From Spirochaetales bacterium (GTDB lineage Bacteria > Spirochaetota > Spirochaetia > Treponematales > Treponemataceae), in NCBI GenBank assembly GCA_003246765.1, contig QKDA01000047.1, positions 1 through 32,921 on the forward strand: DNA of 32,921 nt, given 5' to 3'. Every line of letters begins with the position of its first letter. The stretch's first letter is position 1. Position numbers and translations under genes: made by a program. Of the stretch, positions 1-32,604 are shown piece by piece. The notes below the pieces were generated by a model. The model did not search any database and was not told the DNA's origin. It saw nothing but the letters and a program-made list of their open reading frames with translations.

Positions 1-40
1 GCACATCTCTATCTTCAATGGTAAACTGTTTATACGACAT
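1..40 (-). CDS. IS30-family transposase, N-terminal fragment (cut by window edge)
   Basis: An ATG on the minus strand at 38-40 is preceded by AGGAG with a 7-nt spacer. It opens a frame running off the window edge that reads MSYKQFTIEDRDV. Many IS30-family transposases begin with a similar MSYK-x-(L/F)-T-x-E-(E/D)-R stretch, so I read this as the start of such a transposase. Only 13 residues are visible; no DDE residue and no confirmed insertion-sequence end can be seen. The identification is suggestive only. If right, an insertion sequence bounds or lies inside the left block. Confidence 0.45.
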   Translation of the reverse strand, partial: MSYKQFTIEDRDV

Positions 41-102
41 CGAGTGACTCCTGTTGGTCTGTAGTTGTGGTAACCACATTCTATCAGAATCCTCGATGTC
101 GT
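34..102. repeat. Inverted repeat, 11-bp arms, around the transposase 5' region
   Basis: ACGACATCGAG at 34-44 is repeated in perfect inverted orientation at 92-102. Between the arms lies a smaller palindrome, TGTGGTAACCACA, at 66-78. The left arm overlaps the ATG of the putative IS30-type transposase, so the repeat could be a transposase-binding or autoregulatory site. It is not clearly a terminal inverted repeat of an element. Confidence 0.6.
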
Positions 103-186
103 GCTTCTACCTAATTTTTTCGCACTTCAGATTTGAACTGGCGATATAAAACAAACGGATTGTTGGTGTTATTTTGTGGAGCGAAA

Positions 187-888
187 ATGATGGGACGCCC
201 GATATTGATCGTGGAAGATGACGAGTCTATTGCTGAAGGCTTGGCCTACCAGTTACGAAGTGAGCTTTTTGAGGTATTTGTTGCTTCAACCGCCAAGGAA
301 GCCATGAATTATGTAATGAGGCATGACCCCCAGTTAATCCTGCTCGATCTCCGATTACCGGATGGTGACGGTTTTAATCTCTGTCGTTCGTTTCGGGGGG
401 CGGGAAAAACAATGCCCATACTCATCCTCTCGGCTCTGGACAATGAGTCTGATCGTGTTCTTGGTCTGGAACTGGGCGCAGATGATTATATAACCAAGCC
501 CTATAAACTGAGGGAAGTCGTGGCTCGTATTCGAAGCGCTTTGCGTCGAGCCTATGGATCCTTAGCGGAATCGAACCATGACAGATCTATCGTATTTGGT
601 CGTGTGCGTATCGATGTTGATGCGGTTCGTATTTTCAGGGATGGGCTTCCGGTAGTGGTGACTCCGGCGGAATTCCGGATCGCATTATTGCTGGCCTCAA
701 ATCCGGGAAAAGTTTTTTCGCGTTCGCGCCTGGTGGAGGAGATATATGGAGAGAGCCGTTTTGTGACCGATCGCAGCATAGACGTCCACGTTCACCATTT
801 GCGGACCAAAATAGAGGATGACCCGAGAAAACCGCAATGGTTTACCACCGTACAGGGATTTGGCTATGTCTTTGGCGGTATACATTGA
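187..888 (+). CDS. OmpR-family DNA-binding response regulator
   Basis: This 233-residue protein has an N-terminal receiver domain and a C-terminal OmpR/PhoB winged helix. The receiver shows the acidic pair in ILIVEDDES, the phospho-acceptor Asp in LILLDLRLPDGDG, and the conserved Lys in DDYITKPY. The winged helix ends with DVHVHHLRTKIEDDP and a GFGYVF wing. I start it at the ATG at 187, which follows GGAG by 5 nt; a second ATG at 190 is equally possible. The stop overlaps the start chosen for the sensor kinase, so the two form an operon and probably a cognate pair. Its position upstream of the SPFH and metal genes suggests it senses envelope or metal stress, but no target site is identified. 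Confidence 0.93.
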   Translation: MMGRPILIVEDDESIAEGLAYQLRSELFEVFVASTAKEAMNYVMRHDPQLILLDLRLPDGDGFNLCRSFRGAGKTMPILILSALDNESDRVLGLELGADDYITKPYKLREVVARIRSALRRAYGSLAESNHDRSIVFGRVRIDVDAVRIFRDGLPVVVTPAEFRIALLLASNPGKVFSRSRLVEEIYGESRFVTDRSIDVHVHHLRTKIEDDPRKPQWFTTVQGFGYVFGGIH

Positions 889-2507
889 AATTTCGAGGGA
901 TGCGTCTCAAGTACAGTTTGTTTATCTACAACACAGGACTGACTCTTTTCGCGTTATTGGTAAGCGGAACCCTTTTGCTCGCTTTGGAAGTGAATTATAC
1001 CAAGTCTCATGAACGGGAGCAGCTTCTTATCTATGCCCGGAGCCTGGCAGAACAGATTGCCCCATTTATGTTGCCGGAATTACAGTACGAACAAGTTAGT
1101 GCCGTGGTTGGAATGTATGCCGAATTGGGAGATTTTCAAGCCAGGGTCTATGACAATGAAAGGATTCTCATTGCTCAGTCTACGAACGTTGACATACAGG
1201 GAAGGCCCACAGTTGGCACGGTTCACCCGCGTCCATCAGGTCAAGCCAACGCGGGTTTCCGTGCGATCTCAGATGGTTCGAACGCCGTATGGCACATTAC
1301 GCGACGAACGGATACTAACTTGAGCGCTTTGGATATTCGATATGTTTGTAACCTCCCCATACAAGAAGCCCCCCCAGAGATGCGATCCGCGCAAATAGAA
1401 ACAGGAACCGATAATACCCGGCCGTATGGAGTGAGGACTTTTATTAAGGATCAGCGTTCGGTCATAGCTGAGATCGAAAGTTCTGATCGCGTCGTTGGAT
1501 ATATTGAGCTATTACACCTCAACGACCATGTAATCAGCGCAATGCGTTTCCTGCCGACCGCCATACTGCTTGCCGCAAGCATCTCATTAGCTCTTTCACT
1601 GGCTTTTGGTTCCTTGGCAGGAAGAGGCATGACTAAATCATTGACCGACCTTGGTAGGCAGACCGCACTGATTGCCGCCGGTGACCTTACCGTTCGAACC
1701 CGTCCGGATATAATCCCGATCAAGGAGGCAAGGGAACTCTGCGAGGCATTCAATACGATGACGGACCGTATCAGGGAAATGATCGACGAACGCGATGCGG
1801 ACCGGCAGACTATCCGAAATTTTCTGGATGACGTAGCCCATGAAATGCGCACCCCCTTGAGCGCGATCTCGAATTATGTGGAATTGATTCAGGGCGCGGC
1901 AGCCGAAGATGAACCTGCGCGCATAAAATTCCTTTCTGAATGCGGTCGGCAAATAGACAAGCTTGAATGGCTGAATAAAAACCTATTAAGCCAAGCCCGT
2001 TTGGATTCCGGCGTGCAAAAATACAATAAAAGCCCTCACCATGCAATCGATGTATTGAAAGAGGCGGTGGAATCGCGACGAACCGAATTTGAAAAAAAAT
2101 CCATTGTTCTGGAAGAGACAATTGAACGAGAGGAATTGATCGTGTCTTGCGATCGTGAATGGTTGGTAATAGCGTTATCAAATATCTTGGACAACGCAAT
2201 AAAATTCGCCCCGAATAATTCATGCATTCATGTCGGCGTCGGAAGTAGTTCCGATCAGAAAGCGGTCGTCTTTTCGATCGCAGATCAGGGACCCGGCATC
2301 TCACCCGAGCAACTACCGTTCATCTTTGAGCGATTCTATCGAGGCTCGGTTGTTGGGGCCGGATGCGGCCTGGGATTGGCCATGACGAAAAGTATTGTCA
2401 CCCGCCACTCCGGCCATGTTCTGGTTGATTCCATTCTCGGTAAAGGGAGTACGTTCACAATAACACTGCCGAATTTACCCGAATCAAAGGATATTTCGAA
2501 ATCTTAA
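885..2507 (+). CDS. Membrane sensor histidine kinase (HAMP, HisKA, HATPase)
   Basis: This kinase has about 540 residues. An N-terminal membrane helix (SLFIYNTGLTLFALLVSGTL) is followed by an extracytoplasmic sensing region of about 180 residues, a second membrane helix, a HAMP linker, a dimerisation domain with phospho-acceptor His in DDVAHEMRTPLSAIS, and an ATPase domain with an N box (NILDNAIKFAPNN), G1 box (DQGPGISPEQ), F box (FIFERFYRG) and G2 box (GCGLGLAMTKSIV). The start is uncertain. A TTG at 885 overlaps the regulator's TGA by 4 nt and suits translational coupling; ATG at 900 and ATG at 837 are alternatives. No recognised ligand-binding domain or metal motif is evident in the sensing region. 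Confidence 0.92.
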   Translation: MKFRGMRLKYSLFIYNTGLTLFALLVSGTLLLALEVNYTKSHEREQLLIYARSLAEQIAPFMLPELQYEQVSAVVGMYAELGDFQARVYDNERILIAQSTNVDIQGRPTVGTVHPRPSGQANAGFRAISDGSNAVWHITRRTDTNLSALDIRYVCNLPIQEAPPEMRSAQIETGTDNTRPYGVRTFIKDQRSVIAEIESSDRVVGYIELLHLNDHVISAMRFLPTAILLAASISLALSLAFGSLAGRGMTKSLTDLGRQTALIAAGDLTVRTRPDIIPIKEARELCEAFNTMTDRIREMIDERDADRQTIRNFLDDVAHEMRTPLSAISNYVELIQGAAAEDEPARIKFLSECGRQIDKLEWLNKNLLSQARLDSGVQKYNKSPHHAIDVLKEAVESRRTEFEKKSIVLEETIEREELIVSCDREWLVIALSNILDNAIKFAPNNSCIHVGVGSSSDQKAVVFSIADQGPGISPEQLPFIFERFYRGSVVGAGCGLGLAMTKSIVTRHSGHVLVDSILGKGSTFTITLPNLPESKDISKS

Positions 2508-2617: not shown

Positions 2618-4165
2618 ATGAATAATCGTTTAAAAACGCTGGATCGACGTGAATTGGCCATTTTGATCACCATCGGGGCTAATTTGGCCTTGGTCGGGCT
2701 CAAATACGGGCTGTTCGCGCTTTCCGGCAGCATGGCTTTGAAAGCCAGCGCATGGCATTCATTCGGAGACGTATTTTCTTCACTGCTCGTTTTTTCGGGC
2801 TTTCTGATCAACAGGATTTTAACCGGGAAACGGGAGAAGTATTCGGTAATAATCGAAAATATCATCGCTTTGACCATGTCCGTATTGATCTTTTATATGG
2901 CAGTGGACATTTATCGGGAATCCATGTCGACAGCTGGCACGGTATCACTCACATACCTTTGGCCTGTTACCGCGGCATCGTTTCTGACCATCGGAATTAC
3001 CTATTTTACCGCGAAGTATAAGGAATTTGTCGGACATTCAACGGAGTCCCTTAGTTTGATCGCCAGCGGTTATCATTCACGCCTGGATCTGTACTCGTCC
3101 TTATTGGTTCTCATCAGTTTGATTTCCTCGGCTTTGGGCATGGCTGCTTTGGATCGGTTTGCGGCCATGATCATCTGTCTGTTTATTGTTATTTCTGGCT
3201 GGGAAATTGCCATTCCGGTGCTAGCTTCCCTGAAATCCGCATTGCGCAAGACCCCGTTAGGAGAAAAACTACCACAAAAGGGGATGACTACCAGAGCTAT
3301 GGTAATGATCGGCATCGGCGCATTTATGGTTATGTCACTTCTGTCGGGCTTTGTAGTAATCCAACCCGATGAAAGGGGCATTGTGACGCGCTTTAGCAAG
3401 GTGGATCGAGAACTTAGCCCTGGACTTCGATATCGAATTCCCTATATTGAGAGTATTCGCGTCGTTTCTACCGGCGAGGTCAGAAGGATAAATACCGGTA
3501 ACAGACTTGTCCTGACCGGTGATACGAACTTGCTTAATGTGGAAATGAGCGTTCAGTACCGGATAAAGAACCCGGTAAAGTTCTTGTATGGGAATGCTTT
3601 GCCCGCAAAGATGGTTGCCGGTAGCGCGGAAACCGCATTGTCTGCCATAACGGCAACACGCGGAGTGGATGATTTACTGGTGGGGCAACGCCTCGAGATC
3701 GCCGCTCAGGTTAAAAATGATGCGCAGGTTCTTCTGGATTCCGGTAGTACAGGCTTGGAAATTGACTCGGTATTGTTTGTCTCGGTTGCTCCGCCCGATG
3801 ACGTGGCTGAAGCCTTCCGGGATGTAGCCAGTGCCCGGGAGGACAAGAACACCTATATCAGCGAAGCGATGGTGTACCGTAATGAAGTCGTTCCCCTGGC
3901 GCGCGGCGAATCAGCCAGGAACGTCCTTGCCGCCAAAGCCGAAATGCAACGCAAGTCCGACATTTCGTCCGGAGAAGCCGATAGATTCTCTTTACGCTCC
4001 CGTGCAAACCGTCAAGGCGGGGAGGTGAATAAAAATCGCTATTTCTTCGAAGCGATGGAAAAGACGTTGCCTAAAGCCAGGAAATTCATCGTCGACCCAC
4101 GGGTTGTTTCGAACCCGACCCAGTTATGGCTTTCCCGGGAGGGAAGTCTCCCGGGACTCGAGTAA
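2618..4165 (+). CDS. CDF transporter membrane domain fused to an SPFH/HflK-type domain
   Basis: This 515-residue protein has two modules. Residues 1 to about 210 form six hydrophobic segments with the CDF metal-site signature: H47-x3-D51 in the second segment and H153-x3-D157 in the fifth, the His/Asp tetrad of Zn-type CDF exporters. The usual CDF cytoplasmic C-terminal domain is missing. In its place a seventh membrane segment (about 228-250) leads into an SPFH domain beginning VIQPDERGIVTRFSKVDRELSPGLRYRIP and continuing through HflK-like blocks (LTGDTNLLNVEMSVQYRIKNP; VAPPDDVAEAFRDVASAREDK) to a coiled region. SPFH proteins such as HflK/HflC form large membrane cages. My inference is that this one holds a metal exporter inside such a cage. 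RBS GGGAGAG precedes the ATG. The downstream SPFH genes are close and co-directional. Confidence 0.88.
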   Translation: MNNRLKTLDRRELAILITIGANLALVGLKYGLFALSGSMALKASAWHSFGDVFSSLLVFSGFLINRILTGKREKYSVIIENIIALTMSVLIFYMAVDIYRESMSTAGTVSLTYLWPVTAASFLTIGITYFTAKYKEFVGHSTESLSLIASGYHSRLDLYSSLLVLISLISSALGMAALDRFAAMIICLFIVISGWEIAIPVLASLKSALRKTPLGEKLPQKGMTTRAMVMIGIGAFMVMSLLSGFVVIQPDERGIVTRFSKVDRELSPGLRYRIPYIESIRVVSTGEVRRINTGNRLVLTGDTNLLNVEMSVQYRIKNPVKFLYGNALPAKMVAGSAETALSAITATRGVDDLLVGQRLEIAAQVKNDAQVLLDSGSTGLEIDSVLFVSVAPPDDVAEAFRDVASAREDKNTYISEAMVYRNEVVPLARGESARNVLAAKAEMQRKSDISSGEADRFSLRSRANRQGGEVNKNRYFFEAMEKTLPKARKFIVDPRVVSNPTQLWLSREGSLPGLE

Positions 4166-4218
4166 GGTATAAATCAAATTAATCAATACCGTATCGGCAT
4201 CATCATAGGAGGTGAGTT

Positions 4219-5106
4219 GTGACCGTCAAGAAAAGTTTATTTGTTGGTTTGCCCGTAATGGCGATCGTTCTTGTTACCTTGGTCTTTTTTACCGTGGATA
4301 TGACTGAATATGCAATCGTCACGCAATTCGGGGCACCTCAGCGGGTAATCATGGAACCAGGGCTTTCCGCGAAACTGCCCGATCCCGTGCAAAGCGTCAT
4401 CAAGCTAGATCGTCGTGTTCAGCTTTATGATTCCCCCGAGATTGAATACCTTACCAAGGATAAGAAAAACATCCTGGTTCAAGCCTATGCCGTCTGGACT
4501 ATCAGTGACCCCTTATTGTTTTATAAAAGCGTGAAGACCCTCGAAGGGGCCAGCGTGCGCCTGACTGATATCGTGACTTCCGATTTGGGTTCAATCCTCG
4601 GACGATACGAATTGCCGGAATTGGTCACGACGCAATCCGAGCAAACAAAATTGGATGAACTGAGCCTTGAAGCTACGAAACTCATTGCCTCAAGAGTCAG
4701 TGCCTACGGATACGTAATCTCGGATGTTCGGTTGAAGATGATTAACTTCCCTGAGGCAAACCGAAAAAGTGTCTTCCAGCGGATGCGCGCCGAACGCCAG
4801 CAGATAGCCCGTCAGCTCCGATCGGAAGGAACTGAGGAAGCGACCAAAATTCGCGCGGCGGCAGATGCCGAAAGGACGACGATTCTGTCGGCATCCATGC
4901 GCGATGCAGAAGCAATCCGAGGGGAAGGCGAAGCTAAGGCCATCCGTATCTATGCGGCCGCATACGGTAAAGACCCGCAGTTCTATAAGTTTTTGCGTTC
5001 GCTTGAAGCGTATGACAAAGTAATCACCGAAGGAACGACCCTCATCCTGCCGTCCAATTCCGAGTTGTTCAAGTACTTGAATCCGGATGCAAACGCATTG
5101 CGTTGA
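4219..5106 (+). CDS. hflC: HflC-like SPFH-domain membrane protein
   Basis: This 295-residue protein has an N-terminal membrane segment at about residues 7-27, then an SPFH domain (EYAIVTQFGAPQRVIMEPGL; PEIEYLTKDKKNILVQAYAVW) and an Ala/Glu/Arg-rich helical region typical of HflC (MRAERQQIARQLRSEG; AIRGEGEAKAIRIYAAAYG; PQFYKFLRSLEAYD). HflC assembles with HflK around FtsH in known bacteria, with most of the cage outside the cytoplasmic membrane. The start is GTG at 4219 after a strong GGAGGTGA. It lies 53 bp after the CDF-SPFH gene and 26 bp before the second HflK-like gene. No ftsH lies nearby, so the caged partner may be the fused CDF domain rather than the protease. Confidence 0.9.
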   Translation: MTVKKSLFVGLPVMAIVLVTLVFFTVDMTEYAIVTQFGAPQRVIMEPGLSAKLPDPVQSVIKLDRRVQLYDSPEIEYLTKDKKNILVQAYAVWTISDPLLFYKSVKTLEGASVRLTDIVTSDLGSILGRYELPELVTTQSEQTKLDELSLEATKLIASRVSAYGYVISDVRLKMINFPEANRKSVFQRMRAERQQIARQLRSEGTEEATKIRAAADAERTTILSASMRDAEAIRGEGEAKAIRIYAAAYGKDPQFYKFLRSLEAYDKVITEGTTLILPSNSELFKYLNPDANALR

Positions 5107-5132
5107 TCTAGTTATCCAGAGGAGGAAGTCCT

Positions 5133-6293
5133 ATGTCTGATAAAGTGCCAGGAAATGAACCAGATGGAAATCAAGCGCCCCGTGGTACGGAGAGACCGTC
5201 GATCGCGTTATCGCTAGTCTGGATTTGGGATCGTATTAAAGTCATTTATAGCCGCGTCGTCCGGCTATTTACGGCTGAAAGAAATACCGTTTTACAAGAT
5301 ATCAAGCAGGCGTTCAAGCACCTTAATCCTATGCGGATATCATATGGGATCGTCCTTGGAGCATGTATCTTATATGCGGTATCGGGGATATACACCGTTC
5401 AACCAGGCGAAAACGCGGTAGTGGTAACCCTTGGCGCCATCTCCGAGGCCGCGGTTCCCGAAGGTATACACTACCGCTTACCCTGGCCCTTTGCCAGGGT
5501 GAGCAAAGTCAACGTTTCGGAAGTTCGCCGGGAGATTGTCGGGCTTGAACAAGCCGAACCGGATCATCCCGAGCATCCCGAAGGTCTGGATCGAATACAA
5601 GTCTTGAGCGGCGACACGAATATCATCGATTACGTAGCGATTGTGCAATATAAAGTGAAGGATCCGACTAAGTATCTGTTTTCGGTAAACGTCGCTCCGT
5701 ACCGGCTTATTCGCAACGCAATCCGGACTGCAATAACCAACAAAAGCGCCTTATTACCCGTCGATGACATTTTAACCACGAAACGGCAATCCATGCAGAC
5801 GGAAATCCGCAATGACATTCAGGCGTTGATGGACTCCTATGGGAGCGGGGTTTCTATCGTTACAGTTAACTTCCAGAAGGCCTACCCTCCTGATGAGGTA
5901 GCCGACGCGTTCCAGGACGTACAAAGCGCAAAAGAGGATAAAGAGAAAATGATCAATCAAGCTCTGGGTTATCAGAATAGCCTGATACCTGAAGCACGAG
6001 GTACCGCCGAACGTTCCTTGATCGAAGCGCAGGCGTACGCCCAGTCCGTGATGGATACGGCGAATGGAGCCTCCATGGGCTTTGATAAAATCCTTTCGCA
6101 GTTTCGCTCGGATCGTCTAATTTATGGCGAAGACGTCACCAGATTCCGTTTATACCTCGAGACTATGGAACGCGTGATCAAACGCGTAAATACGTATGTC
6201 GTGGAAAAGGACGGAAAGATCGATCTACGCATGGTCGACGCGATGCAGAAGATACGCATGAGCGAGTCCACTATGGGGATTGGTGAACGATGA
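5133..6293 (+). CDS. hflK: HflK-like SPFH-domain membrane protein
   Basis: This 386-residue protein starts at an ATG behind GAGGAGG. A hydrophilic N-terminal section of about 70 residues precedes one membrane segment (ISYGIVLGACILYAVSGIYTV), then the SPFH domain (VQPGENAVVVTLGAISEAAVPEGIHYRLPWPF; LSGDTNIIDYVAIVQYKVKDP) and the HflK-type block AYPPDEVADAFQDVQSAKEDK followed by a long helical region. It shares block order with the SPFH half of the fusion gene upstream, but has no CDF domain, so the operon encodes two different HflK-type subunits and one HflC-type subunit. Its end overlaps the chaperone gene start as ATGA, showing translational coupling. Confidence 0.9.
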   Translation: MSDKVPGNEPDGNQAPRGTERPSIALSLVWIWDRIKVIYSRVVRLFTAERNTVLQDIKQAFKHLNPMRISYGIVLGACILYAVSGIYTVQPGENAVVVTLGAISEAAVPEGIHYRLPWPFARVSKVNVSEVRREIVGLEQAEPDHPEHPEGLDRIQVLSGDTNIIDYVAIVQYKVKDPTKYLFSVNVAPYRLIRNAIRTAITNKSALLPVDDILTTKRQSMQTEIRNDIQALMDSYGSGVSIVTVNFQKAYPPDEVADAFQDVQSAKEDKEKMINQALGYQNSLIPEARGTAERSLIEAQAYAQSVMDTANGASMGFDKILSQFRSDRLIYGEDVTRFRLYLETMERVIKRVNTYVVEKDGKIDLRMVDAMQKIRMSESTMGIGER

Positions 6294-8278
6294 GTATCGA
6301 AGATATGAATTCCACGACTGATTCTGTAAAAGAATCTTCCAATGCCCTCGTGCCGGTAGTTAGACAAGTATCACATAATGCTAATAAACCAAAAATCGCT
6401 AGAATGATAGCGGGAATGGTATCCCTCGTGATTTGCGTCGTTGGTTTTACAGCATATATTTTATCACGACCACCGGCCCCGAATATTGTCGCATCTATGG
6501 AAGGGGGGCAAATCACCGTTGAGGATATAAAATCCCACATTGAATTGCTATCCAGGCAAAAAATCGAATCGCTTGGCGCTATTGACTTGAAAACCTTGCT
6601 TGCTATCACCGAAGAGATGGTCTTTGATGAGCTAGCCCGGCGATGGGGAACAACGCGCAAGGTGGAAAAAGATGAGCAGATCAGTCACCAAATGGTTCAC
6701 CTGAATGATGAAATCGATCTTGATAATTGGCATGATTCCATGCATGCAAGCGGAATGGGGATCAATCAAAGCGACATTGAAGCATATTACAACGCTAATA
6801 AGGAATCATTCGCCGAACGTACATTAAGCGAATCACGTGATGAAATCGAGCGGATTCTCAAATCTCAGAGTGAGGACAACTTTGTTGGGAATTATATCGA
6901 AGGATTGAGGAATAATGCGGATATTCAACGCTATTTTGACATTCTTAAAGCCCCCGAACCGACTTCTGAAGAAATAGAGGATTTTTACAAACGAAATCTT
7001 GAATCATTCTCCTTACCAGAAATCGCATATGTGGACCAAATCCGGATCGACGCTTCCGAAAACCGGCTTCAGGCTCAAGGAGCTGCCGATCGCATACGCC
7101 AAAGGATCACCGACGGCGCGGATATCGCCAGCGCTTTGGGAGAAGATGAGAAAATCGTAGACCTTCGGGAAAACATACTCTTGACTCGTCAAGACAAGGA
7201 CGCTGATGTCGAATTCACGGACAAGGCCTTTGAATTGACACAAGGGCAGATCAGCGCTCCATTCGAGGTTGAAGGATCCATCATCTTGATCCGTATGAGA
7301 AAGAAGGAAGCGGCAAGACAAATGCAATTATCCGAGATACGTAACGAAGTGACATTGTCCGTCAGTAAAGAAAAACTAACCACATGGTTTTCGGAACGAA
7401 AAGATTCCCCCTTGTTCTACGTTAACGGCGTTCGTTTAAGCGCGGGGGAATTCTGGCAAGAATTCCAGGAAATGCCGCCAGAGTATCGAATGGCTTATAA
7501 TGGCTTTGAAGGTCGAAAGCGCGTGGCAGAACAACTTATTGACCGATACTTGGTGGTTATGGAAAACACAGGAAAAAAACAAGAGGGAAGCGAATCAGAG
7601 TTGCTGAAGGAAACTCGAACCCAGCTTATCAAACAATTGATCGACAACGAGGAGATAGATGCGAACACGAAGGTCACGGACGCGGAGATCCAGGCATTCT
7701 TTAGCAAAAATAAAAAACGTTTTACCCTCCCCCCAAAATCTCAAATACGCCAGATCAAGATAACACTGGAATCAGCGAATATGGATGTTAAACAAGCAAT
7801 GGATCTCGCGCAAATCGCATACAACAAATTGGTACCGGGATGGCCAAAAAAAGGTGCGAGTTTCGATGAGATAGCCAAGGAATATGATACCGCTACCTTG
7901 GCGGGGATACCCGGCGCCAGTGAACCCCGCTGGGTTGGCGAGGGAACCAATCACGATAGGGAGCGCCGCGATCATGACCTACATATGAGGGTAAATAAAC
8001 TGGGAGTTGGAGAGATCGGAAAGCCTTTTGTCTCCGGGGACGGAGTGTATATCGTCCAAGTTCTTGATCGCGCGAAGCCCATTCCACTGTCTTTAGCTGA
8101 TACGAAAGTATTTATCGAAGAAGAGATTGGAGCCCTTAAGCATGAAAAGAGCATGAAGGAATTTCAGGACAAGCTATATCGGGAATACTCCGTGCGAATA
8201 TATAAGGCATCTTTATCTGGCTTACTGTCTGAACTTAATTCAGGGAAAAATATGAGCGATTCCTCTCAATTACGATGA
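6290..8278 (+). CDS. Membrane-anchored parvulin-type peptidyl-prolyl isomerase/chaperone (SurA/PpiD-like)
   Basis: This 662-residue protein has a cytoplasmic N-terminus, one membrane anchor at about residues 36-58 (MIAGMVSLVICVVGFTAYIL) and a large extracytoplasmic part. That part has SurA-N-like helical segments and two rotamase-like regions. The first, from EIEDFYKRNLESFSLPE to FEVEGSIILIRM, looks degenerate. The second, from EIQAFFSKNKKRFTLPP to GDGVYIVQVLDRAKP, keeps the order of a parvulin fold. It starts within the hflK-like stop (ATGA overlap), so it is likely made together with the SPFH proteins. I infer that it folds or protects envelope proteins at the SPFH assembly. Whether either rotamase region is catalytic cannot be judged here. 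Confidence 0.82.
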   Translation: MSIEDMNSTTDSVKESSNALVPVVRQVSHNANKPKIARMIAGMVSLVICVVGFTAYILSRPPAPNIVASMEGGQITVEDIKSHIELLSRQKIESLGAIDLKTLLAITEEMVFDELARRWGTTRKVEKDEQISHQMVHLNDEIDLDNWHDSMHASGMGINQSDIEAYYNANKESFAERTLSESRDEIERILKSQSEDNFVGNYIEGLRNNADIQRYFDILKAPEPTSEEIEDFYKRNLESFSLPEIAYVDQIRIDASENRLQAQGAADRIRQRITDGADIASALGEDEKIVDLRENILLTRQDKDADVEFTDKAFELTQGQISAPFEVEGSIILIRMRKKEAARQMQLSEIRNEVTLSVSKEKLTTWFSERKDSPLFYVNGVRLSAGEFWQEFQEMPPEYRMAYNGFEGRKRVAEQLIDRYLVVMENTGKKQEGSESELLKETRTQLIKQLIDNEEIDANTKVTDAEIQAFFSKNKKRFTLPPKSQIRQIKITLESANMDVKQAMDLAQIAYNKLVPGWPKKGASFDEIAKEYDTATLAGIPGASEPRWVGEGTNHDRERRDHDLHMRVNKLGVGEIGKPFVSGDGVYIVQVLDRAKPIPLSLADTKVFIEEEIGALKHEKSMKEFQDKLYREYSVRIYKASLSGLLSELNSGKNMSDSSQLR

Positions 8279-8457: not shown

Positions 8458-8802
8458 ATGCATGAGGACATATGCAGCCAATTCGGAATTACCTGTACGG
8501 ACGATGCAGAACCTCTTCGGCAATCACTTCTCGATGTCTCGGGATTATCAGAGCTTTTCAAAGCACTGTCCGACGAGACCAGAGTAAAAATTCTGTTCCT
8601 CTTTTCCCAGAGGGAACTTTGCGTCTGTGATCTTGCCTTTTTATTAGAGATGAGCCTGCCTGCTATCTCGCACCATTTGCGTTTTCTGAAAGCCATGCGG
8701 CTTGTTCGGAGTCGCAAAGATGGCAAAAACGTTTTCTACGCTCTTGAGGATAATCATGTTCTTTCGCTTATCGATCAGGCTAGAGAACATTATATCGAGT
8801 AA
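8458..8802 (+). CDS. cadC: CadC/SmtB-type ArsR-family metal-sensing repressor
   Basis: This is a 114-residue winged-helix repressor with an ATG 5 nt after AGGAGG. It keeps both metal sites of the CadC group. The alpha3N-type site is built from C6 and C13 in the N-terminal arm plus C55 and C57 in ELCVCDLA. The alpha5-type site is D98, H100, H111 and E114, with exactly the SmtB spacing D-x-H-x10-H-x2-E. The recognition helix is in SLPAISHHLRFLKAM. By family knowledge it would release DNA on binding Cd, Pb or Zn and so derepress the P-type ATPase 22 bp downstream. It probably binds the 40-bp palindrome in its own promoter. Confidence 0.93.
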   Translation: MHEDICSQFGITCTDDAEPLRQSLLDVSGLSELFKALSDETRVKILFLFSQRELCVCDLAFLLEMSLPAISHHLRFLKAMRLVRSRKDGKNVFYALEDNHVLSLIDQAREHYIE

Positions 8803-8824
8803 AACTAGAAATCAGGAGGACTAT

Positions 8825-10921
8825 ATGACCAAGTACAAGATTCAGAACCTTGATTGCGCGCAATGTGCCAACACAATCGAATGTGAACTCAAAAAAACTC
8901 CAGGGCTGGAATCTACACGCCTCAGTTTCGCGACGGGATCCATATATCTTGAGGCAAAACATACGCAAATTGCCCAAGAAGTTATCGACAGGATTGAGCC
9001 GGGAGTAACGATAATCCCCTTTGATACTGTGCAGAAAGAAGAGCAATCAAATACGGGAAGAGTAATTCAGATCGCGATCGCGGCGGCGCTTTTCATCGTA
9101 GGTTCTGTTTTCAACAGTAAACTTCATCAGACTCCTTATGCCTTTGCTGAGTATGCCGTTCTTTTTTCGGCGTATCTTTTGGTCGGGGGACCCGTACTCT
9201 TGAACGCCTTCAAGAGTATCATCCGGGGACAGGTTTTTAACGAGATGTTCCTGATGAGCATCGCGACGATCGGTGCGATAATCATTCATCAGATACCCGA
9301 AGCGGTCGGGGTAATGCTCTTCTATTCGGTGGGGGAATACCTCCAGGACCGCGCCGTGGATAAATCCAGAAGATCCATTGCATCGCTTATGGACCTTAGG
9401 CCAGATACCGCCAGGGTATTGGAAGGAAAGGAGCGGAGAAATGTCTCGCCGGAGATAGTCAGGGTAGGCGAACTGCTTGAAGTACTTCCTGGCGAACGAA
9501 TCCCCCTCGACGGAGAAGTCGTGGAAGGATCATCCTTCGTAAACACCTCCTCACTGACGGGAGAATCAGTTCCGCGCAAAGTAGAGCCAGGCGATAAGGT
9601 TTTGGGCGGATTCCTAAACGACGAAGGAAGAATTGTCATTCGAGCCGAGAAGATATTCGGGCAGAGCGCGGCAGCGCGCATTTTGGAGTTGGTAGAGAAT
9701 GCTTCCAGCCAAAAGGCGCCTACCGAAAAATTCATTAGCCGTTTCGCTGCTGTTTATACACCCATAGTGGTATTGATCGCTACGATCGTCGCTATTGTCC
9801 CGCCGCTTATCCTTCCTGGCGCGACTTTCGGAGACTGGATATATAGGGCGTTGGTTATCCTTGTAATCTCTTGTCCCTGTGCTCTCGTCGTTTCAATCCC
9901 TCTAGGTTACTTTGGCGGCATCGGTGCGGCGTCTCGTAATAAGCTGCTATTTAAGGGGTCAAATTACATTGATGCTCTCACTAAAGTCGACACAATCGTC
10001 TTCGACAAGACTGGAACCTTGACGGAAGGAGTTTTCGAAGTAATAAACATAACAACGAGAAACGAGTTTCCAAAGAAGGAACTTCTTGAGTGGGCAGCTA
10101 TTGCGGAATCGCATTCGTCTCATCCGATCGCGCGATCGATTCGTGAGGCAGCCGGTAACCCCGGTCGCATGGCAGATGACATACTGGAAGTCAAAGGACA
10201 TGGGGTCATTGCACAAATAGGCGGAAAAAAAATATCCGTGGGTAATGACCGACTTCTGCATAAAGAGGGTATCCCGCATGAAGATTGCGGAATTCAAGGG
10301 ACTATCGCGTACGTTGCGGTTGATGGCCGCTATGCAGGTTACATCCTGATAGCCGACCGTATAAAACCCACGGCTCAGGCAATGGTATCGTCATTAAAAG
10401 CATTGGGTATCCGTAAAGTCGCAATGCTTACAGGTGATGATCAAACGGTGGCAAAATGCGTTGCCGTTGAACTCGGTCTCGATGTCTTTTATGCGGAACT
10501 TTTGCCGGATGAGAAGGTTTCCAAGTTAGAGGAACTTGAAAATGACGTAAACCGCAAAGGCGCTATTGTCTTTGTGGGAGACGGCATGAACGATGCTCCC
10601 GTCCTCGTTCGGTCAGACGTAGGAATTGCCATGGGAGGATTGGGCTCTGACGCCGCGATTGAAGCCGCGGATGTGGTGGTAATGGATGACGACATCTCCC
10701 GCGTACCGCTAGCCCTGAAAATATCCCTGTTTACCAGAAAAGTCGTTTTACAGAATATCGTATTTGCCCTTGCGGTTAAGGGGGTCTTCATCGCGCTAGG
10801 AGCATTTGGCGTTGCCAGCATGTGGGAAGCCGTGATCGCCGATGTCGGAGTTTCATTGCTGGCTGTTGTAAATTCCATGCGAACTGCATCTCAAAGCACG
10901 GCGGGAAGCCTAAAGAAGTAG
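8825..10921 (+). CDS. cadA: Zn/Cd/Pb-exporting P1B-type ATPase
   Basis: The protein has 698 residues from the ATG at 8825, which follows AGGAGG; longer upstream starts would overlap the repressor gene and are not needed. It has an N-terminal heavy-metal-associated domain with C11-x2-C14 (LDCAQCANT), the actuator motif TGES, membrane metal motif SCPCALVVSIP, phosphorylation motif DKTGTLTEG, the SHPIAR motif of the nucleotide domain, and the hinge GDGMNDAPVL. A CPC motif with a CadC-type repressor points to Zn, Cd or Pb rather than Cu. It would pump the metal out across the cytoplasmic membrane. It is followed at 12 bp by a transglutaminase-like gene in the same operon. Confidence 0.95.
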   Translation: MTKYKIQNLDCAQCANTIECELKKTPGLESTRLSFATGSIYLEAKHTQIAQEVIDRIEPGVTIIPFDTVQKEEQSNTGRVIQIAIAAALFIVGSVFNSKLHQTPYAFAEYAVLFSAYLLVGGPVLLNAFKSIIRGQVFNEMFLMSIATIGAIIIHQIPEAVGVMLFYSVGEYLQDRAVDKSRRSIASLMDLRPDTARVLEGKERRNVSPEIVRVGELLEVLPGERIPLDGEVVEGSSFVNTSSLTGESVPRKVEPGDKVLGGFLNDEGRIVIRAEKIFGQSAAARILELVENASSQKAPTEKFISRFAAVYTPIVVLIATIVAIVPPLILPGATFGDWIYRALVILVISCPCALVVSIPLGYFGGIGAASRNKLLFKGSNYIDALTKVDTIVFDKTGTLTEGVFEVINITTRNEFPKKELLEWAAIAESHSSHPIARSIREAAGNPGRMADDILEVKGHGVIAQIGGKKISVGNDRLLHKEGIPHEDCGIQGTIAYVAVDGRYAGYILIADRIKPTAQAMVSSLKALGIRKVAMLTGDDQTVAKCVAVELGLDVFYAELLPDEKVSKLEELENDVNRKGAIVFVGDGMNDAPVLVRSDVGIAMGGLGSDAAIEAADVVVMDDDISRVPLALKISLFTRKVVLQNIVFALAVKGVFIALGAFGVASMWEAVIADVGVSLLAVVNSMRTASQSTAGSLKK

Positions 10922-10933
10922 AAAGGACATATC

Positions 10934-11647
10934 ATGGATGCATTTCTTGATCAAACACTGCTTTTGGATTTTCAAAATCCGAATATTCAAGAGCTCATTG
11001 ATTCTCGTGGGTGGCGTGGCTTTAATGTAGAGCGGCGTATTCGTGGAGTATATGAGTTCATCCGCGATGAGATCCTTTTTGGGTACAATGAGGACGATGC
11101 CCTTCCCGCATCCCGAATACTTTCTGACGGTTACGGCCAATGTAATACAAAGGGAATTTTATTCATGGCCCTATTACGGGCCCTGGACATTCCCTGCCGT
11201 TTTCACGGATTCACGATCCACAAAGCGCTCCAGAAAGGCGCTATAACCGGTATCTGGTACACTCTCGCGCCAAAGGAAATCGTCCATAGTTGGGTCGAAG
11301 TTCTCTATGAGGGGACATGGAGAAACTTTGAAGGGTTTATCCTGGATCTAAAGTACTTGAGGGAAGTGCAAACAATGTTTCCGGAAAGAAAAGGCTCATT
11401 CTGCGGATATGGAATTGCGACAGACTGCTTTGAGGCTCCCGCCGTCGAGTGGACCGGCGGAAATACGTATATCCAAAAGGAAGGCATTGAGCGAGATTAT
11501 GGTGTTTTCCCTGATCCTGATACGTTTTTTCGGGAGCATTCGCAGTCGCTCAGTATCGTCAAAAGGGTGGTATATAAAAATATAACAAGACATTCAATGA
11601 ATAAAAACGTTGAGCGTATACGAAACGGATTTACGATTAGCCGTTAG
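10934..11647 (+). CDS. Transglutaminase-like cysteine protein in the metal-efflux operon
   Basis: This 237-residue protein has a transglutaminase/papain-like core: the Cys nucleophile C70 in GYGQCNTKG, the His at H118 in EIVHSWVEVLYEG, and an acidic third position near NFEGFILD (E133 or D138). No signal peptide or membrane helix is visible, so it is probably cytoplasmic. It lies 12 bp after the ATPase gene and is the last gene before a terminator, so it is co-regulated with metal export. Its substrate is unknown. Transglutaminase-like folds include proteases, amidases and isopeptidases, so it might act on a thiol peptide, but nothing in the sequence shows that. Confidence 0.78.
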   Translation: MDAFLDQTLLLDFQNPNIQELIDSRGWRGFNVERRIRGVYEFIRDEILFGYNEDDALPASRILSDGYGQCNTKGILFMALLRALDIPCRFHGFTIHKALQKGAITGIWYTLAPKEIVHSWVEVLYEGTWRNFEGFILDLKYLREVQTMFPERKGSFCGYGIATDCFEAPAVEWTGGNTYIQKEGIERDYGVFPDPDTFFREHSQSLSIVKRVVYKNITRHSMNKNVERIRNGFTISR

Positions 11648-12550: not shown

Positions 12551-12941
12551 TTATCACTATTTTCAGCATTCCCGAATTCGTTTTTTTCTCAAGCAAGCAG
12601 CGACTGCATTCAAGACGTCGTGCCGTGATAACTTTCTCGATTGCCGTAAAATACCGCCAGATCACTTTCTCGTCCGCAAGTAATAGGCGTAACGATACCG
12701 TGAACAGACTATTTTTGATAACTCTGTCTTTCAAAGAACAACTGCCGACCTCAAGCGAAACGAACGCCTTGGGAAAACCCGTTCCCGCCGGAATCTTTGA
12801 TTCGAGCCCCACGTATCGCAATGGCGGCAGCCGGATCGCGTCGTCCGAGTTCTCTTCGATTTCGATAAGCGCACAGGACAATTCACCCATCAAGGTTTCG
12901 GCAATACGCTCGAGAATCCTCTCTTCCACAATCTCGATCAT
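12543..12941 (-). CDS. Putative phage neck or tail-completion protein
   Basis: This 132-residue protein has an acidic helical start (IEIVEERILERIAETLMGEL) and a mixed beta region. Its stop lies in a hairpin, and its start overlaps the stop of the connector gene as ATGA. Position after the connector, size and pattern fit a neck or tail-completion protein of HK97-like phages, but no signature motif decides it. It is the last visible gene of the head operon. No tail tube, tape-measure or baseplate gene follows on this strand. Confidence 0.5.
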   Translation of the reverse strand: MIEIVEERILERIAETLMGELSCALIEIEENSDDAIRLPPLRYVGLESKIPAGTGFPKAFVSLEVGSCSLKDRVIKNSLFTVSLRLLLADEKVIWRYFTAIEKVITARRLECSRCLLEKKTNSGMLKIVITL

Positions 12942-13459
12942 CTCAAATACAATCTCCTGTAGGGAGAGAGGTTCATAAGGCGATCCTTGTCCATCGACTG
13001 TGTCTCCTCGATTGTCGTCTTTCCGTACATGAGAAGACGATCATTCATCATCTTGAGAACAGCCTCTTGAATGAGTTGCGGCATTTCGGTTTTCTCGTAT
13101 CCATATCTATAGGTGATGAGCACTCCTCGTTCCGATGCGCTCTCAATCCGAAAGAAAACTTGACGATGCGCGTCGGGTCGTTTGATATCTTTCAACACTA
13201 CGCCCGGCGCGAGTTGTAAGGCCTCGCCAGTCCATGCGTCTACTATCGCGGTAATTTCCCGAACCGGATATTCATGGGGAAGGATTTCTTCGTCGTTCGT
13301 TTCAAGCAGTTCTGTCGTTGAATCCAGAAGGAGATTCCGGTCCAGATACAGGCAAATTTGCTCGGAAACGGCACCGAGTAGCAACCGGTTCCGTGTAGCG
13401 TCCCGCGCATCGAGACCCAGTAGTTCCGACACGACCTCGAAATCCATCAAATCCTGCAT
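12938..13459 (-). CDS. Phage head-tail connector protein (HK97 gp6-like)
   Basis: This 173-residue protein has an N-terminal helical pattern, LLGLDARDATRNRLLLGAVSEQICLYLDRNL, typical of gp6/gp15-type connectors, which form a ring under the portal. A beta-rich middle (EYPVREITAIVDAW) and a helical end (MPQLIQEAVLKMMNDRLLMYG) follow, as in that family. It lies between the virion-like protein and the putative completion protein, consistent with the usual order in head operons. Confidence 0.72.
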   Translation of the reverse strand: MQDLMDFEVVSELLGLDARDATRNRLLLGAVSEQICLYLDRNLLLDSTTELLETNDEEILPHEYPVREITAIVDAWTGEALQLAPGVVLKDIKRPDAHRQVFFRIESASERGVLITYRYGYEKTEMPQLIQEAVLKMMNDRLLMYGKTTIEETQSMDKDRLMNLSPYRRLYLR

Positions 13460-13532
13460 ACATCCCCCTTCTCACAAAGGGGAAAAGTCCTTATGGCACC
13501 CATCCCCTCCACAAACCTGAATTCAGGCGATA

Positions 13533-14093
13533 TTACACCCCGATAAAGGCTACCGTACCGCCCTCGATCACCTCGTTCCCGTCGGTGTTCTCCAGATGAA
13601 GAATTACCGGCCAGCCGAGTTCCTTCCCGGCTACTACGCCGGGGCAGGGGCTTTCAAGACTGGTTCGGTTGGAGGCGGTTAGGGCGAAGAAACTGGTACT
13701 AGGGCTTGCTTCAGTTCCCAGAAGATAGAGCATGGCTGTCTGGCTTGCCTCCACCTGATCGTCGAGGGTAATCGCGTCCCCGGTTTGGGCAGTAATCTCG
13801 GAAACGAGGGTTTGGCCGCCCGAATACCGTATCACCACCTGCCGGCCGGTAAGGCTAGCGCCAATTCCCGGAATCGTCAGGACCGCGCCCTTCGTGGCAA
13901 GGCTGAACCGGTGGACTACCTCGCTTTGAAGGACAATCAGGTTTCCCCCTCCCGCTCCTGCGCGGAGCCGGATTGCCGGAATCGTTACACGCTGGTCGCT
14001 AGCCGGAATGATTGGATAGTTAATGGCCGTTCCGGCGGCCGCGCTTCGGGAAGGGATCGGGATTACTTTCAGAAGTTGCGCGTTGTATCCCAT
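13533..14093 (-). CDS. Virion-associated protein of unknown function (possible decoration protein)
   Basis: This 186-residue protein is rich in Gly, Ala, Ser, Thr and Ile and looks beta-rich (QRVTIPAIRLRAGAGGGNLIVL; VVIRYSGGQTLVSEIT). It has no signal peptide or membrane helix. It begins 1 bp past the end of the major capsid gene and precedes the connector, the slot often used by head decoration or head-fibre proteins. I do not recognise a family; the call rests on position and composition. Confidence 0.55.
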   Translation of the reverse strand: MGYNAQLLKVIPIPSRSAAAGTAINYPIIPASDQRVTIPAIRLRAGAGGGNLIVLQSEVVHRFSLATKGAVLTIPGIGASLTGRQVVIRYSGGQTLVSEITAQTGDAITLDDQVEASQTAMLYLLGTEASPSTSFFALTASNRTSLESPCPGVVAGKELGWPVILHLENTDGNEVIEGGTVAFIGV

Positions 14094-14094
14094 G

Positions 14095-15408
14095 CTACGC
14101 TCCCGTCTTCAGGGTAACCATGTTGCCCTTGCTCCGCGTCACGAGGAAGCCGTCGCGCTTCCTGAACCGGAGAAAGAGTTCCCCGTGTTCAAGCGCCTCG
14201 GTCGTCGCGTCGAAGCGCTTGATCTCCACACCCTTCCGGTTTCCGTGGATGATCCGCTTGGGGTTCATGAAAATGGCGAAGGCCTGATTCGCCACGATGT
14301 CGCCCATCTGGGGGAGGATATGGCTTTCCGTGTAGGCGTAGCCGTCCACCGTGCCGGGCTTTCCATCCATCGGGCCGCGCCAGATCGGCCTTCCATTGGC
14401 GTCCACGATGCCCGTTACATGGGCAAGGACAGACTCATGGAAGAACCACCGGCAATCCTTTCGCTCTTCGGCGGGCACCATGAGGACCGCCTCACGAAGA
14501 TCCTTGTAGGTGAGCGCCGTTGCAGCCGCGCCTCCGATCGTCTTCGTCTTGATATCACTCGCGTTGAAAGCACCCGTGAAGGGAGCTGCGTTCGCGAGGA
14601 GGCACTGCCTGTCGAACTCGAGGGCGTAGGTCTCGGTGAACTCGTCGATGAACATGGAGCCAAGGTCGACGAATACATCTTCCTCGAACTCGTCGAACCA
14701 CGGAATAAATCCCGCGAGAGTGTAAGCCTTGAGCTCGACGCGAGTCGCGCCTTGGGGCTTCGAGCCGTCGATCTTCTGTCCGTAGGCGGTAAGCCACTTG
14801 AGTTCCACGCCGCCCCTTTCGCGCTGTGGCAGGAAGATACTCGGGCCCGTCATCGGGCGATGCTTCACGAGGTTCATCATCACCGACTGCTTCGCCGCGT
14901 CCTGCATGATGGCACTCTCGTAGATCGGGTTGATGAGATACTGCTCGTTCGTCGCCATGTTGCCCATCGGCTCTCCCAGGGCGGCCTTGTTGTTCGAAAG
15001 CTGGAAGCCCTTCTCCGCGGTCCAATTAAAGTCCCGCGGATTGTTCCAGTTGTCGCTCTTGAGGTTCGGACTACACCGCAGTTCCCCAAGAGTCTGAAGG
15101 TTCCCCACCCAGGCCGCGGCGATTGCCTTCCCGAGCTGGTAGCAGAGTTCGCTCCGCGTCAGCTCCTTTGGATTTGCGGCCTCGCCTTTCAGGTTGAGGC
15201 GCATCTCCTTGAGTGTCCCCTTCAGGGCTTCAAGCTCCGTCGTCGCCTGCCCCTTGAGATCGGCAAGCGCCTTGCCCACGTCGTCGAGAATTCCTTCCTT
15301 CTCGGCGAAGTAGTCGGCGGCCGCTTGCTCGGTCGTAAAACCGGTCTTTTCCACACGCTTCATGCCCTTCAGTTTTTCCGTCAGGCCTTGAAGCATCACG
15401 TCTCCCAT
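14095..15408 (-). CDS. HK97-fold major capsid protein
   Basis: The protein has 437 residues from the ATG at 15408, which follows a strong GGAGGAG; a longer upstream frame overlaps the protease gene and lacks this site. The first 100 or so residues are charged and helical (TEKLKGMKRVEKTGFTTEQA; DVGKALADLKGQATTELEAL), like the scaffolding delta domain removed by the prohead protease. The capsid core follows, with blocks such as INPIYESAIMQDAAKQSVMM, FIPWFDEFEEDVFVDLGSMF and GYAYTESHILPQMGDIV. It would form the icosahedral shell. The neighbouring protease, portal and terminase support the call. Confidence 0.88.
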   Translation of the reverse strand: MGDVMLQGLTEKLKGMKRVEKTGFTTEQAAADYFAEKEGILDDVGKALADLKGQATTELEALKGTLKEMRLNLKGEAANPKELTRSELCYQLGKAIAAAWVGNLQTLGELRCSPNLKSDNWNNPRDFNWTAEKGFQLSNNKAALGEPMGNMATNEQYLINPIYESAIMQDAAKQSVMMNLVKHRPMTGPSIFLPQRERGGVELKWLTAYGQKIDGSKPQGATRVELKAYTLAGFIPWFDEFEEDVFVDLGSMFIDEFTETYALEFDRQCLLANAAPFTGAFNASDIKTKTIGGAAATALTYKDLREAVLMVPAEERKDCRWFFHESVLAHVTGIVDANGRPIWRGPMDGKPGTVDGYAYTESHILPQMGDIVANQAFAIFMNPKRIIHGNRKGVEIKRFDATTEALEHGELFLRFRKRDGFLVTRSKGNMVTLKTGA

Positions 15409-15421
15409 AGTCTCCTCCGTT

Positions 15422-16754: not shown

Positions 16755-16767
16755 TCGGATCCTCTCT

Positions 16768-17982: not shown

Positions 17983-18113
17983 CGTTTCCGCGCCACCTTC
18001 GAGACGCTTCCTTCGCGGGTTGCCCTTCGTTTCGGGTTACCTCCTCTTGTAAAGTTTTTACATTTATTTGATTCCATCCTATCACCTCATGTAAAAAAAT
18101 CTATATAAATCAC

Positions 18114-19364: not shown

Positions 19365-19367
19365 ACC

Positions 19368-19838: not shown

Positions 19839-19850
19839 GGATCACCTCCT
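19836..19850 (-). promoter_or_regulatory. Extended Shine-Dalgarno plus ATT initiation codon
   Basis: On the minus strand AGGAGGTGATCC (19839-19850) is directly followed by ATT (19836-19838). It is complementary over 12 nt to the usual bacterial 16S rRNA 3' end. The TGA of the upstream small gene lies inside it, so the two genes are coupled. ATT starts are rare and usually make initiation weak or IF3-sensitive. Confidence 0.68.
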
Positions 19851-20030
19851 CCCGGGTTTCGTCTCTTCCGGTTCAAGTTCCAGCGCGCACAAGCTCCGGA
19901 TAATCCTGTTGGCGTTCTCGTATTCGGCCGCCCATTCGGTGTTTCCCGTCTCGCTCGCATGCGCCTTCCGCTTTTCCAGAAACCTCACCGCCCGCTTGAT
20001 CCCGTCAAGCGATAGATACGGCTTCTTCAT
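19842..20030 (-). CDS. Small charged protein upstream of the terminase genes
   Basis: I start this 62-residue protein at the ATG at 20030 (MKKPYLSLDGIKRAVRFLEK) behind GGGGGTGG; the frame is open about 28 codons further upstream. It is rich in Lys, Arg and Glu and predicted helical. Its stop lies within the Shine-Dalgarno sequence of the small terminase, so translation is probably coupled. The family is not recognised. It may be a small regulator or a DNA-binding accessory. Confidence 0.5.
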   Translation of the reverse strand: MKKPYLSLDGIKRAVRFLEKRKAHASETGNTEWAAEYENANRIIRSLCALELEPEETKPGRR

Positions 20031-20893: not shown

Positions 20894-20900
20894 AGCAAAC

Positions 20901-20922: not shown

Positions 20923-20949
20923 GCACTCCCGACGCACTGACGACGACGA

Positions 20950-32575: not shown

Positions 32576-32604
32576 AAGCGTTCCTCCCGGGGCTGTGGGC
32601 GACA

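Follow-up and report, generated by a model that had tools for sequence, protein, structure and literature searches.

In cation diffusion facilitators (CDFs) both termini are cytoplasmic and export proceeds to the opposite side of the membrane, and HflK, anchored by a single helix, carries its SPFH part on the periplasmic side. A structural study of the complex likewise places HflK/C in the periplasm; it describes not only a closed cage but also an open shell of nautilus-like form (PMC12048511; here and below, statements on cited papers refer to the parts of their text available to us). We analyzed a stretch of 32,921 nucleotides from a Spirochaetales bacterium (contig QKDA01000047.1, positions 1 to 32,921 of the forward strand), the whole of which is called the window. 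At positions 2618 to 4165 of the window, a CDF membrane domain and an HflK-type SPFH protein are fused in one reading frame, and the fusion gene lies in an operon with two further SPFH genes and genes for the handling of metal.

A described system that also has three SPFH genes is the Pseudomonas aeruginosa PA2434-PA2439 locus, which encodes HflK (PA2439, the first gene), HflC (PA2438), a third SPFH protein (PA2437), and the P-type ATPase HmtA (PA2435). The proteins PaFlo5-PaFlo7 are PA14_33070, PA14_33080, and PA14_33110 (PMC13086221). Zinc depletion raised the transcripts of PA2437, PA2438, and PA2439 14.4-, 10.6-, and 9.0-fold, respectively (PMC4542158), and zinc-depleted cells contained more HmtA and PA2437-2439 protein, an increase that the authors call significant for PA2438 and PA2439 (PMC11761036). 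Zur with zinc shifted the PA2439 promoter and hmtA mRNA showed no zinc response in the same study (PMC8531726), and a zinc-chelating drug induced the PA2434-PA2439 locus (PMC9431628). A mutant with all of PaFlo5-7 deleted grew normally and was slightly affected in biofilm and in its virulence in an insect model; the three-SPFH locus is patchily distributed in a small subset of species from different classes, and its horizontal transfer has been proposed (PMC13086221).

The fusion gene of the window is an uninterrupted open reading frame (ORF) of 515 amino acids with the following layout:

2618 to 4165, plus strand: CDF-HflK fusion, with a CDF part at residues 9-205, a linker at about 206-226, an HflK helix at about 228-248, an SPFH domain at 247-418, and a coiled-coil/C-terminal part to residue 515.

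The first-pass annotation, made from the letters of the window, had proposed a CDF exporter fused to an HflK-type SPFH domain, and profile searches bore this out. In Pfam, Cation_efflux (PF01545) matched residues 16-205 (E 8.6e-18, profile positions 2-197 of 198) and Band_7 matched residues 247-418 (E 1.1e-25, profile positions 2-173 of 176). The NCBIfam hflK model TIGR01933 scored 188.8 bits, above its cut-off of 159.4. The NCBIfam CDF model TIGR01297 scored 69.3 bits, under its cut-off of 82.35, which was expected because the C-terminal half of a CDF is absent; the best named CDF subfamily was MamB, likewise under its cut-off. Whereas a classic CDF has a cytoplasmic, metallochaperone-like C-terminal domain, none was found in the fusion, and no third Pfam family matched at E 0.001. 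CDFs lacking this domain exist, and its absence bars the protein from classic CDF status, not from CDF-like transport.

The site-A metal tetrad on helices 2 and 5, which had been read as intact, is present in the window fusion as H47, D51, H153, and D157. A CDF profile built from five of the six fusion forms placed it in register with the D/D/H/D of the FieF/YiiP structures (best E 1.3e-11). On the other side of the junction, residues 228-494 aligned with residues 80-345 of E. coli HflK (7vhp and others, E 8e-40), from the HflK membrane helix on. This match covers nearly all of residues 79-355, which are the residues modelled in the E. coli assembly (PMC12048511). The count of six membrane segments plus a seventh held in full for the fusion of an Aquibium plasmid (see below), in which all seven segments were detected by hydropathy (19-residue windows, cut-off 1.5) and the loops expected to be cytoplasmic were richer in Lys and Arg. 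In the window fusion, the seventh helix and five of the six CDF helices exceeded the cut-off, and one CDF segment fell below it. An AlphaFold2 model computed from three rows (window fusion, HflK2, and HflC) showed, with low confidence (mean pLDDT 54.5, pTM 0.38), six long helices, a helix at residues 225-242, and then an SPFH fold; we take it as weak support for the helix order only.

Because a six-helix CDF part with cytoplasmic ends is followed by one HflK helix, the SPFH domain of the fusion should, by homology to both families, lie in the periplasm, the side of CDF export, and the CDF exit would then face the side where the SPFH shell stands. As the HflK match starts at the membrane helix, the CDF part occupies the place of the cytoplasmic N-terminal tail of HflK. 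The earlier description of an SPFH domain that stands in for the cytoplasmic domain of a CDF needs a correction: that CDF domain is absent, but the SPFH domain is predicted to be periplasmic and it is the HflK tail that has been replaced.

Six sequence-distinct forms of the fusion were found, namely that of the window (the protein is identical in genome G001), those of genomes G008, G410, G523, and G123, and one on the Aquibium oceanicum plasmid NZ_CP018172.1. The fusions of G357 and G506 were near-identical to that of G410 by DNA or profile score. The eight carrier genomes belong to five genera and four families, all in the phylum of the window, and the A. oceanicum plasmid, which is closed and alphaproteobacterial, was the only one among 72,556 plasmid records with a full-length fusion. 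The fusion was found in 3 of 59 relatives of the window genome, in 5 of 392 genomes of the phylum, in 4 of 390 genomes of the order, in 3 of 394 and 3 of 139 genomes of the class and family of G410, respectively, and in 1 of 8 genomes of the class of G123. Thresholds differed between these surveys, their draws overlapped, and the own genome was counted where drawn; in the phylum, order, and G410-class surveys, and in the peptidyl-prolyl isomerase (PPIase) survey given below, at most three candidates were scored per genome, so that a copy may have been missed. Other phyla were sampled through plasmid records, apart from one single-protein scan of genome contigs, in which the G001 contig alone matched. 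A search of the plasmid records with HflK2, the second HflK of the operon, returned no second record at a coverage of at least 80%.

Recurrence with a conserved tetrad had been proposed as the check on the fusion. The recurrence was clear, and the tetrad was H-D-H-D in five of the six forms; the G123 form departs from it and is taken up below. An assembly artefact joining two genes was ruled out, as the fusion is uninterrupted in unrelated assemblies, including the closed plasmid and the single-contig chromosome of G410.

Both halves of the protein appear to be constrained. Over the ten pairs formed by the five HDHD forms, the CDF half was 40-63% identical and the helix-7/SPFH part 38-54%, and the CDF value was equal to or above the SPFH value in all ten. 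Identity in the linker was 5-33% over 15 pairs, and the 21-residue linker of the window was 5-10% identical to that of each other form. The nonsynonymous distance between the window and G523 was lower in the CDF half (0.31) than in the SPFH part (0.40) and reached 2.5 in the linker; synonymous sites were saturated. In a tree of 25 SPFH proteins (six fusions, six HflK2, six operon HflC, four canonical HflK, and three canonical HflC), the fusions grouped on the HflK side with a clade support of 95/97, and the HflK2 proteins formed their sister clade (100/99 for HflK2, 99/95 for fusions plus HflK2); support for the operon HflC clade was 100/99. The simplest history suggested by this tree is one hflK duplication and one fusion, with co-inheritance of HflC and HflK2 afterwards.

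In the window, the fusion gene stands between the second and third of the following genes, which are listed in their order:

133 to 888 (true start probably near 187), plus strand: OmpR/PhoB-type response regulator (NCBIfam).
837 to 2507, plus strand: sensor histidine kinase with HAMP, HisKA, and HATPase_c domains (Pfam).
4219 to 5106, plus strand: HflC with a GTG start and one N-terminal helix at residues 8-26 (TIGR01932, 210.6 bits, cut-off 134.4).
5133 to 6293, plus strand: HflK2, without a CDF part, with one helix at residues 69-87 (TIGR01933, 205.9 bits, cut-off 159.4).
6290 to 8278, plus strand: membrane-anchored double-rotamase PPIase with two Rotamase_2 stretches (Pfam) and a helix at residues 40-58.
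8458 to 8802, plus strand: ArsR-family repressor with an ELCVCD motif (HTH_5, E 9.5e-20).
8702 to 10921 (start probably near 8822), plus strand: P1B-type heavy-metal ATPase (TIGR01512, Cd family, 502.7 bits, cut-off 313.5).
10934 to 11647, plus strand: transglutaminase-like protein (Transglut_core, E 9.9e-11), also present in G008.

The fusion, HflC, and HflK2 genes thus form the row of three SPFH genes that the first-pass annotation had described, and an HflC gene adjoins the fusion in all six forms. By hydropathy, HflC, HflK2, and the PPIase of the window each have a single N-terminal helix. We take the PPIase to be PpiD/SurA-like and the repressor to be CadC-like. Counterparts of the response regulator were found in G008 and G410 (Pfam), in Aquibium (annotation), and in G523 (by eye), and those of the kinase in G008, G410, and G523 (Pfam). 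Gene order varied among the forms. G008 has the same genes as the window with the PPIase ahead of the fusion, and G410 has ArsR, ATPase, fusion, HflC, HflK2, PPIase, regulator, and kinase. The order in G523 is ArsR, ATPase, transglutaminase-like gene, regulator, kinase, fusion, HflC, HflK2, and PPIase, the transglutaminase-like gene (which had no Pfam match) and the regulator being called by eye. The Aquibium plasmid carries regulator, kinase, fusion, HflC, HflK2, PPIase, and ATPase, surrounded by PCu(A)C, SCO, CopC, and CopD genes, and in G123 the fusion, HflC, and HflK2 are followed by the contig end. An ArsR-type gene adjoins the ATPase in the window, G410, and G523; a Zur site was not noticed there, although no search aimed at one was made.

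At E<=1e-80, the PPIase profile matched 4 of 392 phylum genomes, all four of which carry the fusion; three of four further fusion carriers had a PPIase at E<=1e-296, and G123 gave two partial matches only. A full-length PPIase was therefore present in seven of the eight fusion genomes and in Aquibium. The window ATPase contains the motif CPCALVVSIP and, in its last helices, K and D-x-G, and CPC with P1B-2-like flanks was seen in all five ATPases inspected (window, G008, G410, Aquibium, and G523). We assume that CPC flanks of this kind, Lys, and D-x-G denote a P1B-2 (Zn/Cd/Pb) ATPase. By such motif rules, the ATPase motifs and the ELCVCD of the ArsR protein in the window point to Zn/Cd/Pb. PADLOC gave no match for six operon proteins, and the counts of promoters and terminators were within shuffle expectation.

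Judged from its surroundings, the operon is mobile, being carried by prophage-type elements and by a conjugative plasmid. Two further features of the window bear on this:

12938 to 22803, minus strand: prophage-type module with genes for head-tail adaptor, major capsid, head protease, portal, large and small terminase, and tyrosine integrase (PHROGs, Pfam).
22916 to 22989, minus strand: tRNA-Met adjoining the integrase, the probable integration site (ARAGORN; Rfam RF00005).

No tail gene was identified among the scanned window ORFs from 12938 to 22989. Among IMG/VR viral contigs, the only match was the 31,283-base contig of G001, which is held there as viral (IMGVR_UViG_2751185592_000002); a phage collection searched with fusion residues 1-224 gave no match at E 1e-3. 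The G001 contig, from another species of the same genus, aligned with window positions 143-22971. There were two base differences up to about position 13,500, which lies inside the phage genes, and then 89-95% identity per kilobase; elsewhere the two genomes matched at 67-86% (14 pieces found). Two differences followed by a sharp drop suggest recombination more than the assignment of a single contig to two bins, although mis-binning may be the sole source of the near-identity for this contig as such. Beyond the far side of the operon, G001 has genes resembling the tail genes of G008 (by eye). Window positions 1-142 had no match in the G001 contig, which has other sequence at that place; these bases may belong to the end of a further inserted element.

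The G410 operon is flanked by a serine integrase (phrog_95) on one side and by capsid, portal, and terminase genes on the other. A stretch of 15.8 kb containing it was 99.97% identical between G410 and G357 (L023 and L024), which belong to different genera, and we read this identity as a sign of very recent transfer. In G008 the operon adjoins an integrase and a minor tail protein, and no head gene was recognized by eye in the G008 stretches read. The Aquibium operon is on a plasmid typed as conjugative, and no phage gene was seen by eye in 20 kb around the G523 operon. On a plasmid of Nitratireductor rhodophyticola, the gene at L020:11737-13293, annotated in the record as an ordinary PPIase, joins kinase residues 1-86 in frame to PPIase residues 133-564, and the junction is of the kind expected if the SPFH genes had been lost by a natural deletion.

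Across the tRNA from the prophage-type module, the window contains a nitrogen-fixation cluster. It includes a 963-aa protein (29795-32686) whose first half matches NifE and whose second half matches NifN, the latter just under its cut-off, adjoined by nifB (28499-29770), modA/modB genes, and a LeuA/NifV relative.

The reading that we favor, at a probability of roughly 0.4, is that the fusion places a metal/proton antiporter in the wall of an HflK/HflC-like assembly, and that this assembly serves as a metal-responsive membrane-upkeep complex. The fusion would be one subunit type of this membrane assembly, with the CDF antiporter placed covalently in the base of the wall. Together with HflC, HflK2, and the membrane-anchored periplasmic PPIase, it would form the upkeep complex beside the Zn/Cd/Pb-type P1B ATPase. 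When metal is in excess, the CDF part of the fusion would take Zn2+-like ions out of the cytoplasm and release them into the periplasmic SPFH shell or close to it. Export would then occur at the same site as the protection of periplasmic and membrane proteins, in which the PPIase and, in trans, the host FtsH would take part. At the level of sequence, the fusion, its tetrad, the recurring gene set, a single origin of the forms found, constraint on both halves, and mobility are established. Transport, its direction, the metal, excess rather than scarcity as the trigger, oligomerization with HflC and HflK2, contact with FtsH, and release into the shell are what we infer. The arrangement suggests a physical coupling of metal transport to the upkeep of membrane proteins.

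It is somewhat unlikely that the operon encodes, more specifically, a self-contained, horizontally mobile, metal-transporting SPFH cage in which the antiporter in the wall discharges Zn2+-like ions into a periplasmic lumen holding the PPIase and FtsH. SPFH proteins had been taken beforehand to form closed cages, and a closed cage is indeed described, but so is the open shell (PMC12048511). The first-pass annotation had inferred that a cage receives or encloses the transporter and that metal is released in a confined compartment; this is one of several readings, and the predicted topology is in its favor. With an open HflK/C complex on record, however, the sealing of metal in a compartment is where this reading is weakest.

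Several observations weigh against an antiporter in the wall of an upkeep complex. CDFs normally work as dimers aided by the C-terminal domain, which the fusion lacks. The tetrad of the G123 form is M-N-H-H, and in the five pairs with G123 the CDF half was 28-35% identical against 33-40% for the SPFH part, lower in four pairs and equal in one, as if constraint on this CDF half had been relaxed. The G123 fusion (L025:213-2633) also has about six extra N-terminal membrane helices, which weakly resemble DUF7847 (under the cut-off). Because G123 is one divergent form from a metagenome-assembled genome with 8% contamination, its loss of the tetrad weakens the claim and does not refute it. The operon has no ftsH gene; the genome of the window itself encodes two M41 (FtsH-type) proteases. 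The SPFH genes of the operon were not found in 25 kb of the Nitratireductor plasmid island (L020), which makes them dispensable in some settings. In the AlphaFold2 model, the pLDDT stays below 50 over most of the CDF part. The window fusion has Ser at the position of E. coli HflK R193, where the other five forms have Arg; the published contact is named Arg191 (PMC12048511), a number that does not fit the E. coli HflK sequence used here, which has Ala at 191 and Arg at 193. If the Pseudomonas hmtA locus were the same operon, zinc scarcity and an importer ATPase would oppose a trigger by metal overload.

Other explanations were weighed against this wall-antiporter reading. The CDF part might be a metal sensor or gate that binds metal without useful turnover and, by changing its conformation in response to cytoplasmic metal, makes the SPFH shell open or close or recruits it, together with FtsH. 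A dedicated metal pump, the P1B ATPase, is already in the operon, five of six forms retain the binding site whereas the C-terminal domain that usually serves for regulation is missing, and both open and closed states of the HflK/C shell are described (PMC12048511). We consider a sensor unlikely, however, as the whole CDF half is conserved in the way a transporter needs, whereas sensing alone could do with less.

It appears quite improbable that the CDF fold is a membrane scaffold, a bulky dimerizing anchor that spaces or curves the ring, with transport lost or incidental. MamB has a scaffold role, and it is the best named subfamily match, under its cut-off; G123 also retains the fusion despite its changed tetrad and adds N-terminal membrane helices. 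The HDHD tetrad is nevertheless kept in four forms whose CDF half is only 38-60% identical to that of the window.

A metal-loading chamber rather than a detoxifier would result if the operon served zinc housekeeping under scarcity, the ATPase taking up metal and the CDF part passing zinc to periplasmic or membrane clients held by the shell and the PPIase. The zinc-linked behavior of P. aeruginosa PA2437-PA2439 beside hmtA (PMC4542158, PMC8531726, and PMC11761036) is in line with this idea, and a PPIase beside the fusion fits the folding of clients. Its chance is slim, for the operons studied here have ArsR and two-component regulators and CadA-like ATPases, the hmtA mRNA did not respond to zinc in one study (PMC8531726), and the Pseudomonas locus was compared through its published description only.

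The fusion may instead be a simple tether that keeps a transporter and quality-control proteins equal in amount and in one place, with neither cage nor confinement. The genes from 2618 to 8278 are in short-gap tandem, which makes stoichiometric co-production plausible. A tether would, however, leave little reason for the resolved part of HflK to be retained almost in full and for HflC to adjoin the fusion in six of six forms, and we give it little credence. That the SPFH cargo is a prophage tool, mainly altering host FtsH activity in favor of lysogeny with the metal genes as an added host benefit, is highly improbable, for although phage genes adjoin the operon in the window, G001, G008, and G410, and a modulation of FtsH by HflK/C in the lambda lysogenic decision is reported by Kihara 1997 (cited in PMC13086221), the Aquibium operon is on a conjugative plasmid among metal genes and the G523 operon showed no phage gene by eye in the surrounding 20 kb.

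If an antiporter does form part of the shell wall, a single machine would couple metal transport, for detoxification or client loading, with the folding and turnover of membrane proteins, and it would be a naturally occurring SPFH assembly that has a transporter among its integral subunits. With regard to the contents of HflK/C-type shells and the purpose of bacterial membrane domes, the fusion covalently marks a client of such shells and offers a direct handle on their function. Its metal site is kept in five forms down to about 37-41% overall identity, and mobile metal operons, prophage ones included, carry membrane quality control. The fusion operon may also explain the published but unexplained link of three SPFH genes with zinc in Pseudomonas.

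The first-pass annotation knew of no described system of this design. The fusion itself was indeed not found described in the PMC literature searched with the terms we used, and domain databases may list the architecture; Pseudomonas, however, has a published locus in which three SPFH genes accompany a P-type ATPase. In the text available of PMC7997004, CDFs and SPFH proteins are treated in separate passages. The operon classes of Hinderhofer et al. 2009 (PMC2636767) group SPFH proteins by operon partner, as is done here, whereas the words cation, efflux, and transporter have no occurrence in the text of that paper available to us. The fusion operon is possibly related to the Pseudomonas zinc locus. 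Going by descriptions only, the hmtA locus resembles the window operon in having three SPFH genes near a P-type ATPase (Zn/Cu transport). It differs in being Zur-regulated and induced by scarcity, and in an ATPase called an importer, of HmtA type, whereas NCBIfam groups the window ATPase with CadA/ZntA; the texts available make no mention of a CDF part, and the word cation occurs 0 times in that of PMC13086221.

The remaining systems are families to which parts of the operon belong. An ATPase and an ArsR protein stand beside the SPFH genes of the window in the manner of the CadA/ZntA P1B-2 ATPases and CadC/SmtB-type repressors of mobile elements; to our knowledge, known cad/znt operons are without SPFH proteins. 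Like the CDF Zn2+/H+ antiporters (YiiP/FieF; MamB/MamM), the fusion has a whole six-helix domain and a site-A tetrad. In contrast to YiiP/FieF, it is without the cytoplasmic C-terminal domain, has HDHD instead of DDHD, and carries an extra helix and an SPFH domain. It shares with the E. coli HflK/HflC-FtsH system the HflK helix, the SPFH domain, the coiled coil, and an HflC partner, but a six-helix CDF domain replaces the cytoplasmic tail of HflK, and the window operon has two types of HflK, a PPIase, and a metal ATPase, with no adjacent ftsH. The families are thus known ones in a combination that we have not found described, and the architecture is real, conserved, and mobile.

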